Shown one piece after another: positions 10,158-26,819 of a stretch of DNA of 34,352 nucleotides (its first letter is position 1; every line of letters begins with the position of its first letter). Below the pieces are notes generated by a model, which was given only the letters and a program-made list of their open reading frames with translations, ran no database searches and had not been told where the DNA came from. The translations under genes and the position numbers were made by a program. This DNA is from Saprospiraceae bacterium (GTDB lineage Bacteria; Bacteroidota; Bacteroidia; Chitinophagales; Saprospiraceae), in the NCBI GenBank assembly GCA_026993525.1, contig JALWSS010000223.1:1-34352 (forward strand), written 5' to 3'.

Positions 10158-10510
10158 TTCTGTTTGTTCTCAGCAATGTGTCTGCAGGGGTTCTCTCATA
10201 GCGGATGAAAGCGGGGATGTCGCAGCCGCTAAGTTCTTTAATTCAGTGGAGCTGGCAAGGATTACCCGGATTTTTCACTTGAAAACTGAGTCCCCCGATC
10301 CCGAAGGCTTTCGGGATATCGGGGCAAAAAGTGCGCTCAGTGGTTGAGAGGGGTTGATCCCGGGACGGGACCGGGAGGTTTAGAGAAGTTGGGAGAGGTT
10401 TAGAGAAGTTGGGAGATTTAGAAGTTGAGAGGGATTTAGAGAAGTTGAGAGAGGTTAAGCTCGGTCGCCCATATACTTCCCGGCGAATGTCGGGATCGGG
10501 GCGCTTAAAA
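10158..10510. repeat. Intergenic repeat block with inverted dispersed-repeat copy 2 and GAGAAGTT tandem words
   Basis: From 10323 to 10365 this region carries the inverted copy of the repeat at 2022-2066 (AAAAGTGCGCTCAGTGGTTG then AGAGGGGTTGATCCC), preceded by a TCCCGAAGGCTTTCGGGA hairpin. From 10377 to 10456 the words TTTAGAGAAGTTGGGAGA and GTTGAGAGG are repeated about five times. It is the 3' flank of leftward folP. No gene is supported. Confidence 0.6.
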
Positions 10511-13616: not shown

Positions 13617-13686
13617 TGAAGAACTGAAGAACTGAAGAACTGAAGAACTGAAGAACCGAAGAACCGAGGAACTGAGGAACTGAGCC
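13617..13686. repeat. GAACTGAA tandem repeat
   Basis: The 8-base unit GAACTGAA is repeated about eight times with late drift to GAACCGAA and GAACTGAG. Variation in copy number would change the distance between the putative promoter at 13576-13604 and the following gene. Confidence 0.8.
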
Positions 13687-15581: not shown

Positions 15582-15586
15582 GGCGT

Positions 15587-15700
15587 AACTCGTGACGCGT
15601 GACGCGTGACACGTGACTCGTGACTCGTGACTCGTGACTCGTGACTCGTGACTCGTGACTCGTGACTCGTGACTCGTGACACGTGACTCGTGACTCGTCA
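15587..15700. repeat. CGTGACT heptanucleotide array
   Basis: About fourteen units of CGTGACT/CGTGACA/CGTGACG follow one another with a strict 7-base step in the middle. The array begins right after the stop of the arylsulfotransferase-like gene. It is read through by artificial frames such as SRVTSHE. The opposite-strand version is seen at 306-384. Confidence 0.85.
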
Positions 15701-19936: not shown

Positions 19937-20037
19937 TTGATAGTAATACCCGCCCAATGGATTGCAGTTAGTCTGTGTTCTACAAACCAACACCCTAAAG
20001 GATGTTGGACTGGTACAACCCAAAGGTTATGCTACGG

Positions 20038-20097
20038 GGAAGTCAGCGCCTGATGTGGCCCCTCACAGGAGCTAACTTTCAGATAGCTCCTGTTTTC
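20038..20097 (+). repeat. Double-hairpin element, copy 1 (5' truncated)
   Basis: The sequence from GGAAGTCAGCGCCTGATGTG to AGCTCCTGTTTTC matches the copies at 26495-26575 and 26739-26819, but it lacks their first 19 bases. The second hairpin is kept (AGGAGCTA at 20067-20074 with TAGCTCCT at 20084-20091) while its loop has changed. It is followed by GTTTTC. Confidence 0.8.
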
Positions 20098-20410
20098 GGT
20101 GGAAGCCGGAACGGGGGCAGGTAGTACCCGGAAGGCAGATGAGCGCTTTGTTGTTTTCCGCCCAGGTCAATAGTATATTCCGGAAAAAAATCCCCCTCTC
20201 CCTTGCATATCTGAAATTTATTCCCCATCTTCACCACCATAAACACAAAAACCCCGTTCTGAGAATAAAACGGAAGTAGAAGAGAAGTAGAGAGTAAGCA
20301 GAGAAGCGTACAGGATTGAAGTGAGAAAGATGGATTCTCAGAACGCTCCAACACCGGCCCATTTCTTTATCGGAAGGCTTTTTTTCTTTAACGCTTAAAT
20401 ATTTTCAACC
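20098..20410. other. Leader region of the 1409-residue protein gene
   Basis: No gene is seen. An 11-base perfect inverted repeat, GTTCTGAGAAT at 20256-20266 and ATTCTCAGAAC at 20334-20344, brackets a purine-rich stretch (AGAAGAGAAGTAGAGAGTAAG). The 60 bases before the ATG are AT-rich, as usual for Bacteroidota leaders. A promoter of the TAnnTTTG type was not found. Confidence 0.45.
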
Positions 20411-23400
20411 ATGAAAAGAATCTCATTATTCCCGCCGGCCATGACCGGCTCAACAGCTCAACAGCTCAACAGCTCAACAGCTCAACAGCTCAACAGCTCA
20501 ACAGCTCAACAGCTCAACAGCTCAACAGCTCAACAGCTCAACAGCTCAACAGCTCAACAGCTCAACAGCTCAACATTAATAACCGGTAAAAGAAAGATTT
20601 TTGAGAGGTTCCGGGAAGTTCCTTTTCTCAAAAAACTTTCCAGACATCGAAGCCTGTCGTTCAAGCTTGCAGCAAGTTTTTTTCTGATGATGGTTTTTAT
20701 GGGTATTGGTTACGGTCACAACGTAGCGTATTCTGAACATGGCTGCCTGTATTCGGCTCCGCTTGACAGGCAGGCAACGGATCAGGCGGTGTTGGCAGAT
20801 TGTTCTTTTTTGATTACGCAGGCAATTTCAAATCCAGATGGTTCCTATGAAATTTGCTTGCAGGCGAATGAGCAAACAGGAGACCATATATGGAATATCT
20901 CTCAGACGCTGGGCGGTTCAACAGTGCAACTTACCGGCCCAAATGTATGTCAAGTATTCCCCCCAGGTTCAGGAACATTCATCATTGAACACATTATATT
21001 TCTTGATGGAATAGGCACAGATACCTGCGAACAATGGGTGTATATAGATTCAACAAATTGTGTTGATAGCCTTGTAAGTGCAAATGTTGAAGATTGTAAC
21101 CTACTGACTACTATATACATCGATATTCAGCAAATCAACCTGCCCTATGTGATTACTTTTGGAGATGGCTCCCTTGCAATACAATCATCCTCAAGTATGG
21201 TTCAGCATCAGTATGCCTCTCCGGGCATATACGAGGTATGCCTGACTTATCAGGTAAGTGAGATCGGATATGTTACCTGTTGTTATCAGATAGAAGTTAA
21301 GCTACCACAGGCTTGTCTTTGTCCCGGGAATGTCATTTATGTCTATTCTGTAGAGCCTTGTACCTGGATCGCAAATATACTCATAGCAATAAACTCCCAG
21401 TATTTGCCCATAACTGTGAATTTTGGAGACGGGTCCGAGGAAGAAGTTTACAATACTACCTGGATAACGCACCAATTTCCCGATCCAGGCACTTATAACA
21501 TCTGTTACAGTTATGAAGCATTTCCCGGAGACACGATCCAATGTTGCGAGCAGGTGCTTATTCCCGGTTGTTGTCTTGATCCGAGTTTTGATCTGGGACA
21601 ACTGCTCCAAAGCAGTTCTTGTTTGAACCCTACTTACAGGGTCACTAATATAGCTTGTGATAACGAAATAGTACCAGCTACCCACATCTGGACATTCAGT
21701 GATGGTACAGAGTACATCGGCTTGCAGCCACCAGATCATATTTTTACAAATTTCGTTGATGAGCTTGGTCAGGTTTGCGTAACACACACCATCATTTGTT
21801 GTGAAAACACAGCCTCTGCTACAGTATGTGTACCTCACAACCCTGGTGCTTATCTCGGACTTCCAGGTGAAGAACTTTACTTTTCAGACATCCTTCCATT
21901 CACTGGCTCCAATGTTCTTTCATTCATTCACCAGTATGCCAGCGGCCCTCTTCCATTTACGATTGACGGAACCCTGATAGCAGATCTCAATGGATGGTTC
22001 AACGGTGGTGTCTGGAATATGGGCAGGAACGCGGAAGTGATTGTCAGGCAATTGGATCCCAATGGTGGCCTGAGGTTTTTTGTTCCTGATGGCACTGTGT
22101 TTCAGGATGCTGCAAGGATAAACTATGCCAGTTGTTGTCCGTGGAGAGGTTTGCGATCTGAAGGTATGACATACATTGCCCTTCGCAATGCCCGAATAAC
22201 AGATGCTCAAATAGCCATACATTATCCAGGCCCCGCCTCTTTTTCATTTCCGTGGTTACACATGTACAACTCCAATATTGTCAATAACAATTTTGGTGTG
22301 AAGTCAAATGAATATGTCAATGTGACTTACATGAATGGGAATCAATTTGTTGGATCAGATGGCCTGCAAATATGTGAATGTGACGCAATCAATGCCATTG
22401 ATTTCAGGAATGCTGACCAATCATTGTTCACTTCAATTCCAATCACCATGACCAGTGCGGGATCTGTGAATACTGTTGAAAATTTCGAGCAGGCTTTCCA
22501 TTTTGAAAATACCGATCTTAAAGTCAGTGGATTCGAAATTTTCGCTTTACAGGACTATTACGGGGTTGATGAACTTCCCAACAATCCACAAGGCGACGCA
22601 GGAATCGGCATTGACTTTAGACGGACCATGTCCGGTGTTTCTTCACTTGAAATCGATAATGTCAACTTCCACGATTTTTCATCACTGAATACCTACAATG
22701 TTGCTGTAAGGGATTATATCATGAAGGGCAAGCACACCTTGACGGCCGTTGCCAGCGATCCATTGAACAGTATCAAAACTTCCAACATCGCAGGTGCTTA
22801 TGATCTGCGTGTTGAAGGCCAGGCAAAACTCAATGCTCAGATTACTGCCAACGACATCTCCACCAACGGCGGCCCCAACTTTGGTTTTGGTATAACCGGA
22901 AATATCCATTCGAAAAACAACATCGTCAATGTAGAAGACAGCAGATTCAGCATCAACTCCAATTCCACTTCCATGCTCAACGGCGGTGTGGTGCTGACCA
23001 GCCCCGCAGAAATTGACCAACGGTACAAAATCACTGCCGACACCATTGACGTTTTTCTGCCGGATGGCGCCGGTATAGGTATAACCAACGCTTTCAATTC
23101 CATCGTGAGGAGGAATACCCTGACCAATGGCGTGGATATTCCAGGCATCTACCTGGATGAGGGTGGAGCTGGTTTGGTGGATTGCAACAACATACGTAAC
23201 AAAACCATAGGCATCGCTGTCCAGGCATCAGAAGCAAATCGCTATGCCGCAAACTACCTCCGGGCCAATGGTCGTGACATGGAGTTTACTGGTAATTCCA
23301 TGGGATCACTGGGCTCCGAAATAAAATGGAACACCTTCCGGGGTAGTGACCTGCAAAGCATCTGGTATTTCACAGATGCCCTAGCAGGCCCACAACTACA

Positions 23401-24640
23401 CAACCATTACAACCAGTGGCAGGCACAGTTTGGGAATGAGGTGGAGTATGAGGATAATTCAAATAGCGCTTTAAATAATCAATTCTATCATCCCAAAGAT
23501 CATCCGGTTGGCACCATCATGCATCCGGCCAGCTTTCCACCGGAGTTGTTTTTAGAAAATCCAACAAGTGATCCCATTGACACGGTGCCACCCTACAATT
23601 TCTGCACCGCTGCCTTCGATATGCTCAGCGCACCGGAGGACACCATCCCGGATGCCAAAGTCGTATGGGAAGGCGTCGTGGATGATACGGTCTTCTGGTC
23701 TGGGTTGACAGCTGCCGAGCAGACCTTCATGCAGCAGGAGATTTATGGCTTGTTGCTGGAGCACCCCGACTGGACGACCGGCAGTGCCAGCCTGTCGGGT
23801 TTCAAGGCTGAGCATGACAACGGCTTTGTCGGAGAAAGCGAAACACTAAAGCGAAACTGGCTGGCGCTCCTCGACAGCATTGCCCGGCATCAGAGTGGGG
23901 TAGAACCTCTCGAGGATGCACTGGACTCTCTCGCCGGTCTCGCCAGTCAGTGGATAGCGCAAATGTCAGAGGATACCACCCAGATGGATTCCCTGCTCGA
24001 TTTGCTCACACCGGTACTGAACGAAGGCGATTCTCTGGCCCTGGTCATCCAGGAAAGCGACTCCCTCTTTTTCCTTGCGGTACAGGATTCGGTGGCTCAA
24101 TTACTGGTTAAGAATGGCGCTCTTTCCGAGGGTGAATGGCACCAGTGGTGTGAAAAACGGTACAACGAAATAGCCCTCCGGTGGCTGGCCGGAACCGAGC
24201 CCGATTCCACGGCCATAGCAGACCTGCGCAGCATTGCAGGCACCTGCCTTTCCGGTGGAGGCCGTGCGGTGTTGTCGGCCCGTGGGCTCTGTACAACCTG
24301 GCTCAAGGAACACTATAGTGAAAATGGTTGCCAGCCGGCTCCCCAGGGTCGGAGTGCCCGGGTTGAGCAAGAAAACGATACGACTGAGTACGGTTTGCGT
24401 TTGGTTCCAAATCCCGCCCATGACATTGTACGGATTCTTGTAAACAAAACATCACAACATCAGGACCTTGAAGTACAGGTTAGCAGCCTGGACGGCCGGC
24501 AAGTTTATCGTGGCACACTGCCATCCGGCAGTATTGAACTCACCCTGTCCGTCGGCAACTGGCCGCAGGGCCTGTATGTAGCGCGGGTATTCGACGGTGA
24601 TCGGGTACTCACACGGAGTTTTGTGATTTTACATCGTTAA
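20411..24640 (+). CDS. Large T9SS surface protein with PKD and beta-helix regions, repeat-interrupted N-terminus
   Basis: A 1409-residue protein. Residues 1-13 precede a stretch encoded by the octanucleotide repeat (STAQQLNS octads, about residues 14-55). A basic region and a signal-peptide-like hydrophobic segment follow (KLAASFFLMMVFMGIGYG, near 90-107). PKD-like domains come next (VITFGDGSLAIQSSSS..QHQYASPGIYEVC; ITVNFGDGSEEE..HQFPDPGTYNIC; HIWTFSDGTEYIG). Residues about 480-1000 have parallel-beta-helix character (NNNFGVKSNEYVNVTYMNGN; GIGITNAFNSIVRRNTLTNG; GIYLDEGGAGLVDCNNIRN). A helical segment and a T9SS tail (YGLRLVPNPAHDIVRILVN ... WPQGLYVARVF) end the protein. There is no start codon between the repeat and the signal sequence except deep inside it, so ATG 20411 or 20441 must be used. 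Base composition of the first 2.2 kb looks more AT-rich than the neighbours. Ligand and function are unknown; adhesin or polysaccharide-binding roles are possible. Confidence 0.85.
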   Translation: MKRISLFPPAMTGSTAQQLNSSTAQQLNSSTAQQLNSSTAQQLNSSTAQQLNSSTLITGKRKIFERFREVPFLKKLSRHRSLSFKLAASFFLMMVFMGIGYGHNVAYSEHGCLYSAPLDRQATDQAVLADCSFLITQAISNPDGSYEICLQANEQTGDHIWNISQTLGGSTVQLTGPNVCQVFPPGSGTFIIEHIIFLDGIGTDTCEQWVYIDSTNCVDSLVSANVEDCNLLTTIYIDIQQINLPYVITFGDGSLAIQSSSSMVQHQYASPGIYEVCLTYQVSEIGYVTCCYQIEVKLPQACLCPGNVIYVYSVEPCTWIANILIAINSQYLPITVNFGDGSEEEVYNTTWITHQFPDPGTYNICYSYEAFPGDTIQCCEQVLIPGCCLDPSFDLGQLLQSSSCLNPTYRVTNIACDNEIVPATHIWTFSDGTEYIGLQPPDHIFTNFVDELGQVCVTHTIICCENTASATVCVPHNPGAYLGLPGEELYFSDILPFTGSNVLSFIHQYASGPLPFTIDGTLIADLNGWFNGGVWNMGRNAEVIVRQLDPNGGLRFFVPDGTVFQDAARINYASCCPWRGLRSEGMTYIALRNARITDAQIAIHYPGPASFSFPWLHMYNSNIVNNNFGVKSNEYVNVTYMNGNQFVGSDGLQICECDAINAIDFRNADQSLFTSIPITMTSAGSVNTVENFEQAFHFENTDLKVSGFEIFALQDYYGVDELPNNPQGDAGIGIDFRRTMSGVSSLEIDNVNFHDFSSLNTYNVAVRDYIMKGKHTLTAVASDPLNSIKTSNIAGAYDLRVEGQAKLNAQITANDISTNGGPNFGFGITGNIHSKNNIVNVEDSRFSINSNSTSMLNGGVVLTSPAEIDQRYKITADTIDVFLPDGAGIGITNAFNSIVRRNTLTNGVDIPGIYLDEGGAGLVDCNNIRNKTIGIAVQASEANRYAANYLRANGRDMEFTGNSMGSLGSEIKWNTFRGSDLQSIWYFTDALAGPQLHNHYNQWQAQFGNEVEYEDNSNSALNNQFYHPKDHPVGTIMHPASFPPELFLENPTSDPIDTVPPYNFCTAAFDMLSAPEDTIPDAKVVWEGVVDDTVFWSGLTAAEQTFMQQEIYGLLLEHPDWTTGSASLSGFKAEHDNGFVGESETLKRNWLALLDSIARHQSGVEPLEDALDSLAGLASQWIAQMSEDTTQMDSLLDLLTPVLNEGDSLALVIQESDSLFFLAVQDSVAQLLVKNGALSEGEWHQWCEKRYNEIALRWLAGTEPDSTAIADLRSIAGTCLSGGGRAVLSARGLCTTWLKEHYSENGCQPAPQGRSARVEQENDTTEYGLRLVPNPAHDIVRILVNKTSQHQDLEVQVSSLDGRQVYRGTLPSGSIELTLSVGNWPQGLYVARVFDGDRVLTRSFVILHR
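20449..20575 (+). repeat. Octanucleotide repeat (CTCAACAG, about 16 units) inside coding sequence
   Basis: Fifteen perfect copies of CTCAACAG run from 20449 to 20568, then a partial one. Because 8 is not a multiple of 3, each gain or loss of one unit shifts the frame. All three frames through the repeat are open. Directly after it, one shifted frame meets TAA at 20577-20579 and the other TAA at 20587-20589; only the present frame (TCA ACA TTA ATA ACC) continues into the signal peptide. Confidence 0.95.
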
Positions 24641-24703: not shown

Positions 24704-26353
24704 ATGAAACAGAACATCAGGATATTTCTACTTTTTATAGCGATTGTAGGAAGTGTACACTGGTGCCATGGCCAGCAATACGACCGGCATTGGTTGGGTC
24801 GAACACCTTATGGATACAAGCTGGTATTGATGCAATTCAATGAGGACGGTATAAGCTACATCCTGACTGGCGTAAGCCCCAAGATTATCATGGATAAGGG
24901 GGCCTTTGCCGTAAGTAATGCTGATGGTGAATTGCAATTCTATACCAACGGCAACGTCGTGTGCAACCACGAATTTGAAATCATGAGTGGAGGCAAGGGC
25001 TTCAACCAGGGGTCCTTTTTCGACGACTGGGATACCTTTGATTCAGATACCACTGCCAACACGCCTTACGTCCCTTACACCTACCAGGTCATTCCCGATG
25101 GCTACGACGATCAGGTGTACTACATGCTGCACGCTTTCGATGAATATTACTGGTTTGATCTCGATGGCGAACCACCAACTGATGATTGTGGAATACTATC
25201 CTCGCCCAAAATGCAGATCAGCAAGATAGACATGTCAGCCAATGGCGGGCGGGGAAAGGTGGTTTACAAGAACAGGATCATAGACAATGACACCATGGGG
25301 GTAACCTTTGCCCTGGTGCGCCACGGCAACGGCAGGGACTGGTGGCTGGTGCTGCGCTCCCTGGATGCACTGGAGTATAAGTCGCTGCTGCTGCGCCGGG
25401 ATTCGGTGGTTCAGGTTGTGCCCAGCAATATTTCTGAACTGAGTTCGGATTGGTTTATGTGCAGTGATTGGAGGTCGACAGCACAAAATTTGTTGTATCC
25501 GTCACCGGACGGAAGCATGCTGGTTGATAAATACGGGGGTTTTCATGCCAAGCTGTTGTCTTTCGACCGTTGCAACGGAGGAGTCACCTTGATTGACACA
25601 TTATACACAGGTGCCAAGGATATCATTGATCCCACTGATGGGCATGTGATTTTTGAAGATGCTTACATTCATGAATTTGCGTTTTCCCCCTCAGGTCGCT
25701 TCCTGTATGGTTCAGGGGATGCGGAGTATGCGCAGTGGGATTTGCAGGCAGAGGACATCGAGGCCAGCAAGGTCACCCTTGGGGGCATTCCCTGGGCTGT
25801 GACCGAGGACCAACAAAGTGTAATATATAATAGAATGGGCTCCACCATCATGGCACAGGGTCCTGACGGAAAAATATACAGCCTGGTTAATTACTGGCAC
25901 AGCGTGATCGAACACCCGGATGAAAAGGGGGAGGCAGCGGGGATTTGCCTGGCCCCGGAGAATTTACCTTCATGCCTGGGCATACCGTACCGTCTCTATG
26001 CCGTACCCAAGCCCAACTACCGCCTCGGCCCCCTCGAGGGCAGCCCCTGCGACACCATCCCCGATGAGCCGGAGCCTCCGGAGCATCCCACCGGCGGCTA
26101 CGACCTGAGCGTCTGGCCCAGCCCCAGCAGTGGCCCCGCCACGGTGGAGATCACCCTGCCGGACTACAGCCAGGGACGTGCCCGCATCGCCATCGTGGAC
26201 ATGCTGGGCCGCTACCTGTACTCGCACACCTTCCCGCCCTACACCTACCTGCATCAACTGGACGTAAGCGACTGGGCCTCTGGCGTTTACAACGTCCTTC
26301 TGCTGGAGGGCAAGGACCTCAAAGCCACAGCCCGGCTGGTGGTCATCCGGTAG
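24704..26353 (+). CDS. Secreted T9SS protein of unknown function, beta-propeller-like
   Basis: A 549-residue exported protein. It has a Sec signal peptide, MKQNIRIFLLFIAIVGSVHW followed by CHGQQ. The body (about 25-450) contains recurring beta motifs such as GAFAVSNADGELQFYTNGNV, PSPDGSMLVDKYGG, HEFAFSPSGRFLYGSGDAEY and MAQGPDGKIYSLVNYW, which resemble propeller blades with SPxGxxLY turns. A Pro/Glu-rich linker (PDEPEPPEHPTGG) leads to a T9SS tail (YDLSVWPSPSSGPATVEITL ... WASGVYNVLLLEGKD). The start at 24704 was chosen for the signal peptide; the ATG at 24650 lies in the hairpin. I do not recognise a specific enzyme. Its gene follows the 1409-residue protein by 63 bases and may share a transcript. 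Confidence 0.8.
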   Translation: MKQNIRIFLLFIAIVGSVHWCHGQQYDRHWLGRTPYGYKLVLMQFNEDGISYILTGVSPKIIMDKGAFAVSNADGELQFYTNGNVVCNHEFEIMSGGKGFNQGSFFDDWDTFDSDTTANTPYVPYTYQVIPDGYDDQVYYMLHAFDEYYWFDLDGEPPTDDCGILSSPKMQISKIDMSANGGRGKVVYKNRIIDNDTMGVTFALVRHGNGRDWWLVLRSLDALEYKSLLLRRDSVVQVVPSNISELSSDWFMCSDWRSTAQNLLYPSPDGSMLVDKYGGFHAKLLSFDRCNGGVTLIDTLYTGAKDIIDPTDGHVIFEDAYIHEFAFSPSGRFLYGSGDAEYAQWDLQAEDIEASKVTLGGIPWAVTEDQQSVIYNRMGSTIMAQGPDGKIYSLVNYWHSVIEHPDEKGEAAGICLAPENLPSCLGIPYRLYAVPKPNYRLGPLEGSPCDTIPDEPEPPEHPTGGYDLSVWPSPSSGPATVEITLPDYSQGRARIAIVDMLGRYLYSHTFPPYTYLHQLDVSDWASGVYNVLLLEGKDLKATARLVVIR

Positions 26354-26494: not shown

Positions 26495-26575
26495 GAACAA
26501 TTCAGGAGCTGACCGGAAGTCAGCGCCTGATGTGGCCCCTCACAGGAGCTAACTTTCGGTTAGCTCCTGTTTTCA
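26495..26575 (+). repeat. Double-hairpin element, copy 2
   Basis: An 81-base unit identical to 26739-26819. Hairpin 1: AGGAGCTGAC (26504-26513), loop CGGAA, GTCAGCGCCT (26519-26528), one mismatch. Hairpin 2: AGGAGCTAAC (26544-26553), loop TTTCG, GTTAGCTCCT (26559-26568), perfect, followed by GTTTTC. The two hairpins are clearly related to each other. A truncated copy is at 20038-20097. Confidence 0.9.
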
Positions 26576-26738
26576 TTTCCAAGCCTTGCCAGAGGGAGGC
26601 TTGTCGTCCGGCGGCCGGGAGGCCGCCACTTATGTGCGTCAACGAGCGGAGCTCGTGACGAGCATTCAGGATTTCATAGGCAGAGGAGGGAATTCGGGGC
26701 TTCCTGGTTGCGCTCAATGTCTTTTGATCAGGTCTTGC

Positions 26739-26819
26739 GAACAATTCAGGAGCTGACCGGAAGTCAGCGCCTGATGTGGCCCCTCACAGGAGCTAACTTT
26801 CGGTTAGCTCCTGTTTTCA
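26739..26819 (+). repeat. Double-hairpin element, copy 3
   Basis: Identical over 81 bases to the unit at 26495-26575 and in the same direction, 244 bases downstream. The sequence between the two copies (26576-26738) shows no gene and holds a small GGCCGGGAGGCC hairpin. Confidence 0.9.

Follow-up and report, generated by a model that had tools for sequence, protein, structure and literature searches.

The window, by which is meant the whole stretch of 34,352 nucleotides that was analysed, carries on its forward strand a gene for a large secreted protein in which a perfect octamer array is placed between the start codon and the signal peptide, and on the same strand a second gene, also tagged for the T9SS, follows close behind. 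The features of the locus are as follows.

20387..20410, forward strand: A/T-rich leader upstream of the start codon (from the sequence; same-genus orthologs have a similar leader ahead of their ATG; an automatic alignment of these was poor, with 45% mean column identity)
20411..20413, forward strand: start codon ATG of the 1409-aa ORF (position backed by the array-less homologs)
20411..24640, forward strand: the putatively switched gene, encoding a secreted protein of 1409 aa (ORF, domain scans)
20448..20575, forward strand: proposed slippage switch, the octamer array (GCTCAACA)16 (TRF, frame reading)
20577..20579, forward strand: TAA closing one of the two other frames (frame reading)
20587..20589, forward strand: TAA closing the other shifted frame (frame reading)
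20666..20713, forward strand: hydrophobic core of the signal peptide (translation, judged by eye)
21143..21253, forward strand: PKD domain, best stretch aa 245-281 (PF18911, E 2.6e-13)
23069..23497, forward strand: beta-helix-like stretch, aa 887-1029 (PF13229, 21.3 bits, under the cut-off of 25.9)
24407..24628, forward strand: T9SS type A sorting domain, aa 1333-1406 (PF18962 33 bits, TIGR04183 31.1 bits, both above cut-off)
24704..26353, forward strand: T9SS-tagged gene after the switched gene (24650 is the listed start of the ORF; homologs set in at residue 19)

TRF describes the array as a tandem repeat of period 8 with 16.0 copies, a 100% match and a score of 256, the highest among the 23 rows that it returned for the window, and the array begins 37 nt downstream of the A of the ATG at 20411, inside the long ORF, much as the initial annotation had it with its count of about 16 octanucleotide copies within a reading frame. 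The order of the parts is ATG, array and signal peptide: the frame from 20411 encodes MKRISLFPPAMTG, next a tract of repeated STAQQLNS and next TLITGKRKIFERFREVPFLKKLSRHRSLSFKLAASFFLMMVFMGIGYGHN, and stays open to the stop at 24638. The period is not divisible by 3 although the array is in coding sequence, and the two other frames end directly after the repeat at the two TAA codons, both of which had been correctly placed. The earlier remark that all three frames are open within the repeat is true, but it adds no evidence since it is automatic for an 8-base unit, where, once one frame is open, each frame reads the same eight codons. Elsewhere in the 5.16-Mb genome there is no occurrence of (CTCAACAG)3.

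The assignment of the product to the T9SS is borne out by the Por_Secre_tail match above cut-off and by the SprA gene of the same genome (2422.6 bits), which also holds at least 150 T9SS-tag matches; the sorting-domain profile A1 additionally matches the mirolase C-terminal domain 8qb1. At the N-terminus there is a hydrophobic stretch, judged by eye. The product had also been described as a PKD/beta-helix protein, of which the PKD part stands while the beta-helix match lies below the Pfam cut-off. The predicted structure of aa 664-1409 has a mean pLDDT of 70.2, and a Foldseek search of the PDB with this model gave nothing at E <=0.001, and above that value the best matches were to Ig-like DUF3244 domains, to beta-helix enzymes and to the C-terminal domain of mirolase; the structure prediction adds little.

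The array is, with high probability, a translational ON/OFF switch, that is a simple-sequence contingency locus, acting by slippage on a T9SS surface protein, with a repeat that has been rebuilt several times over at the one site. Translation would begin at the ATG at 20411 and pass through the array, where slippage would add or remove one octamer and so shift the frame. The shifted frame would meet a TAA just past the array, ahead of the signal peptide, such that no surface protein would result until a later slippage event restored the frame. In the assembly as it stands the frame is ON, a state that is the assembled consensus of a 128-bp array in a 230-contig draft assembly. We infer that slippage occurs within populations, that the protein is absent in the OFF state and that the switching has an adaptive role. 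The genome contains a mutS1 gene.

Central to this mechanism is where translation starts. The initial annotation had named a single plausible start, and while its position upstream of the array stands, a second in-frame ATG is found at 20441; this too is upstream of the array, so the consequence is nil. What if the ribosome instead began downstream of the array, using a rare or internal start codon and leaving the array as a 5' untranslated element that tunes expression through RNA structure or spacing? The window array does fold, as RNA, better than 199 of 200 shuffles (z -2.45), and an in-frame ATG or GTG at or near the signal peptide is present in the orthologs of three genomes of the genus, here labelled G008, G001 and G006. 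In G008 this is an ATG directly ahead of the hydrophobic stretch and in G001 a GTG 7 nt past the array, which makes a post-array start possible in these two. The window gene, by contrast, has no in-frame ATG, GTG or TTG between the array and position 20687, which is already inside the hydrophobic core. Moreover, the units are mostly unrelated from homolog to homolog, so that no common RNA structure is to be expected, and RNA structure as the common function was rejected despite the good folding of the window array. Among the nine homologs that have no array, seven open with a plausible ATG ahead of the signal peptide, as a start ahead of the array would have it (G304 and G417 are counted as array-less with an unclear start). 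Finally, a second gene of the genome, taken up below, has a stretch past its array that evolves as coding sequence, and the difference in length between this gene and its ortholog is a multiple of 3. An untranslated array is accordingly very improbable, and the reading of a start before the array is the one retained here.

The comparison with relatives is where the case for a switch gains most. The gene is present in six of the 14 genomes of the window's genus, and since the six named relatives are Saprospiraceae MAGs, the Saprospirales-like source suggested from the letters alone was well judged. Across the family, matches were found in 21 of 398 Saprospiraceae genomes, with two candidates scored per genome, by which second copies may be missed, and 18 of them have a readable homolog 5' end; set aside from the 18 were G406 and G180 (two copies), which are fragments lacking the 5' end, and the shorter homolog in G167. 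A search at the level of the order, in 396 genomes, gave no further homolog. The same-genus genes and the array-bearing genes of other genera are listed here with unit, copy number and assembled state.

Window: GCTCAACA, 16 copies, ON
G008: CACGACGA, 8.8 copies, ON
G006: CAACGAC[GA], 7.4 copies, OFF
G001: ACGGACGC, 11.2 copies, ON
G002: ACTACCGA, 4.2 copies, OFF (copy of the gene cut by the contig end)
G012: array absent, start MKKITFFGQKK (the copy matches in three pieces in the body)
G205, other genus: CCGACTTG, 9.0 copies, after the ATG, OFF
G213, other genus: CCCCTGTA, 4.8 copies, after the ATG, OFF (same array in MAG-355)
G127, other genus: AGAACAC, 6.6 copies, after the ATG, OFF
G378, other genus: CAGTCAA, 8.7 copies, after the ATG, OFF

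Thus, an octamer array lies between the ATG and the signal peptide in five of the six same-genus orthologs, and an array occupies this place in nine of the 18 homologs overall, as seven octamers and two heptamers with units that are all different. In each of the nine the two frames other than that of the signal peptide close within 0-80 nt past the array. Most units are as different from each other as shuffled units are; the G008 unit may be related to that of G006 (edit distance 1) and to that of G001 (edit distance 2). In one genus, g114, a heptamer is found in one species and an octamer in another, and in a further genus, g67, one of three homologs has an array. On the gene tree the array label requires at least five changes (gains or losses) and is not clustered, 110 of 500 shuffles being as low, with several rows of the tree partial or long-branched. 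As the other half of the homologs are without an array, the gene can do without the switch. The units in relatives being mostly unrelated 7- or 8-mers, what selection seems to maintain is a switch in this part of the gene and not a given repeat. The phase-variable layout proposed from the window by itself is supported by the frames, the stops and the homolog arrays, and the evidence is stronger than a single-sequence view would allow, in that homologs share the place and the apparent switching property but not the unit sequence, and some of them are OFF.

The assembled states are three ON and six OFF, every one in a different species, and three in nine is the third expected of a random frame. 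The bodies of all six OFF genes are intact as far as the sequence reaches, three of them to the C-terminus and three to the end of the sequence. These data consist of one assembly per species, in which signal peptides and several start codons were judged by eye, and for the ON orthologs, with arrays of 70-128 bp, the assembled unit numbers may be wrong. If draft unit numbers were unreliable throughout, the ON and OFF calls would mean little: the six named records are MAGs, and arrays of 128 and 90 bp come near the usual short-read length. The six OFF arrays, though, measure just 34-72 bp, the presence and place of an array are independent of its exact unit number, and four orthologs are alike in two collections, though probably as the same records, so that there is scarcely any probability that the pattern is an artefact of assembly.

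A switch of this kind has also to be set against the supply of arrays in the genome at large. Many 7-9-mer arrays may arise, and some might persist, unselected, in a tolerant site such as a dispensable stretch before a signal peptide. Arrays are indeed common, with 85 of them (period 4-13, at least 3.5 copies) in 571.6 kb of the window's own genome, a sample of which part, the second gene discussed below included, was chosen for distant T9SS hits, and the stretch ahead of the signal peptide is poorly conserved and may be without an array. Period 7 accounts for 42 of the 85 and period 8 for 22. However, only ten lie inside ORFs of at least 150 aa, though such ORFs make up 80% of the sampled bases, and only four are perfect with at least eight copies, the window array and that of the second gene among them; the median match in the background is 93%, compared with 16 perfect copies in the window. 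Arrays as such are therefore ordinary in this genome, while a perfect array within a coding 5' end is not, and position, perfection and homologs argue against the window array as a mere member of the background.

The most direct control comes from other T9SS-tagged genes of the same genome. From 150 T9SS-tag hits (150 of 260 candidates scored), 15 frames shorter than 300 aa and 35 without a 5' end were removed, and among the 100 examined genes (at least 300 aa, 5' end readable) an array of the frame-switch type is present only in the window gene, that is in 0 of 99 others. Five of these 99 have some array near the start of the frame. In three it precedes the likely start (a 9-mer, a 10-mer and an 11-mer with imperfect copies), and in the other two it is a hexamer of 2.8 copies; by eye all five were rejected as frame switches. 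Against the 0 of 99, Fisher's test gives p 1e-6 for the genus (4 of 5 orthologs, window excluded) and 4e-8 for all homologs (8 of 17), or 5e-6 and 3e-7 with the second array-bearing gene counted against (1 of 100), values that serve as guides only because the homologs are not mutually independent and a single genome supplied the control genes. Neutral persistence would hardly account for this contrast between orthologs and other tagged genes, and a frame broken in six of nine homologs should have given decaying genes, yet the six bodies are intact; a neutral array in a tolerant site is in our judgement unlikely. Two further properties were set aside. A non-triplet period is shared by 72 of the 85 background arrays (p 0.22) and was rejected as evidence, and the excess of octamers (seven of nine homolog arrays as against 22 of 64 background 7- and 8-mers, p 0.01) is not relied on, given that the background is from one genome.

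An automatic filter for switches returned five candidates in the window's own genome (834 kb, 87 arrays), five in G008 (348 kb, 18 arrays), three in G006 (400 kb, 15 arrays) and three in a further genome, G004 (358 kb, 22 arrays). Apart from the window array and that of the second gene, these were dismissed by eye as intergenic, antisense, within gene bodies or with the real start downstream, one of them (L222) being antisense to a frame that by eye resembles peptidyl-tRNA hydrolase. No further switch was accepted in the samples of G008, G006 and G004, zeros that are not exhaustive since two of the eight known positives (L014 and L084) escaped the filter. Two heptamer arrays of G008 may be recorded in passing: one (L223:1995-2023), with an inverted TCATCCC arm after it, within a frame of 2706 codons that looks by eye like a polyketide synthase, and another (L214:2170-2201) splitting a frame named by eye as acyl-CoA-synthetase-like.

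The second gene, on contig C125 of the window's genome, falls outside the 150 T9SS-tag hits as its tag scores 17.9 bits where the cut-off is 23, and encodes a secreted-looking product of 1199 aa with a trypsin-like domain. It and its ortholog in G004 are arranged as follows.

L097:79-3675: C125 gene, with the array (TCCGTTC)8.3 at 91-148, 12 nt after the ATG, ON
L195:5034-5066: array of the G004 ortholog (gene on the reverse strand), same TCCGTTC unit and place, 4.7 copies (TRF)

The two proteins are 64% identical, and both genes are in frame with the leader conserved. The distance from the ATG to the shared body is 72 nt in C125 and 51 nt in G004, a difference of 21 nt, which is the length of three units, and the pair thus reads as a change of unit number between species with the frame kept. 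In the codons past the array there are 8 synonymous and 13 non-synonymous changes, as compared with 156 and 250 in the body, so that the stretch changes as the body does, which is as expected if it is translated. Among the further C125 homologs in which arrays were sought, ten in one set and 16 in another (coverage 11 of 19 other loci, plus 16 of 18 of L292-L309), none has such an array.

How does the window locus relate to switches that are already known? The opa genes of Neisseria have (CTCTT)n in the 5' region that encodes the leader peptide, according to the relevant passages of PMC3960869, and in what is described there the likeness is plain: a non-triplet repeat within the first part of the coding sequence of a surface protein, where the frame sets production of the protein. 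The opa unit is a pentamer as opposed to the 7- or 8-mer here, and belongs to an outer-membrane protein of a host-adapted pathogen, with no T9SS involved; in the family described here the unit also varies from homolog to homolog. Scans with Pfam and NCBIfam gave no Opa homology for the window protein, finding only PKD, a weak beta-helix and Por_Secre_tail. The best reading would be that the window locus works like the opa or lic loci without homology to Opa. In Haemophilus influenzae the simple-sequence loci include tetranucleotide tracts and the hepta-, octa- and nonanucleotide tracts of hmw1A/hmw2A and others, and the sections of PMC2651432 that treat them propose 7- and 8-base units as switches, with a unit length at the hmw locus that varies by strain. 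As presented there, the hmw tracts are upstream of the genes, in contrast to the place between start codon and signal peptide in the window, and they concern a single species, where the present gene family spans several genera.

Within or near the Bacteroidota the parallels are of other kinds. Heptamer arrays of TAACTGA in Beggiatoaceae, Cyanobacteria and some Bacteroidetes are, in the parts of PMC4679880 that deal with their location, mostly intergenic and proposed to be sites of a post-transcriptional regulator; as long heptamer arrays in Bacteroidetes genomes they are similar to the background arrays of the window's genome, but they are intergenic with one conserved unit, whereas the window array is in an ORF and units differ in all nine homologs. 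Phase variation in Bacteroides is treated as DNA inversion in the pertinent passages of a 2025 review (PMC11868660), which shares with the window locus the reversible switching of surface features in Bacteroidota and differs in that site-specific recombination takes the place of the slippage proposed here. For F. psychrophilum, the text of PMC4322650 at the point concerned makes a passing remark on phase variation of colonies. Searches of the open-licence PMC literature turned up no account of phase variation by slippage, either for a T9SS protein or in Saprospira.

Rather likely, to our minds, is the broader proposal that in environmental Saprospiraceae this family of very large T9SS surface proteins is a hotspot at which slippage switches are born and replaced again and again: selection would maintain a frame switch at one position, ahead of the signal peptide and past the start codon, and the repeat would be lost and rebuilt with unrelated 7- or 8-base units drawn from the genome's supply of new arrays. 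Slippage phase variation of T9SS cargo would then exist in Bacteroidota that are free-living and have large genomes, with phage or predators as a possible source of pressure. The adaptive reason, be it phage, predator or adhesion, is a matter of speculation. The slippage switches of the compared literature are mostly from host-adapted pathogens, and the bacteria here are environmental Bacteroidota. A family that keeps the switch and remakes its sequence would show how contingency loci arise and are replaced, and it makes mixtures of ON and OFF cells in natural populations directly testable. For annotation, there is a caution in that OFF copies in such assemblies may be called truncated or start-less. 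The shorter homolog of G167 has (ACCCAAC)3 directly after an out-of-frame ATG (L285, G167:C264, ~852-890), and this is perhaps a young switch.

The downstream gene encodes about 550 aa, with its probable start at 24704, and forms a conserved pair with the switched gene, as counterparts follow the orthologs in G006 (L080:9948-11588, 53% identical) and G001 (L083:9963-11570, 50% identical). The gaps between the two genes are of ~63, 80 and 71 nt in the window, G006 and G001, respectively, and the downstream gene is possibly co-transcribed with the switched one. With a same-strand T9SS-tagged gene close behind in three genomes, the OFF state may lower its expression too. Between genes of the window there are imperfect 7-12-mer arrays, for instance at 13617-13683, 15584-15698, 10375-10456 and 40-384. 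Near-identical hairpin-like stretches, AGTCAGCGCCTGATGTGGCCCCTCACAGGAGCTAAC...GCTCCTGTTTT, are also found after genes at ~20036-20099, 26516-26576 and 26752-26815, and these three copies are perhaps a repeated terminator element.
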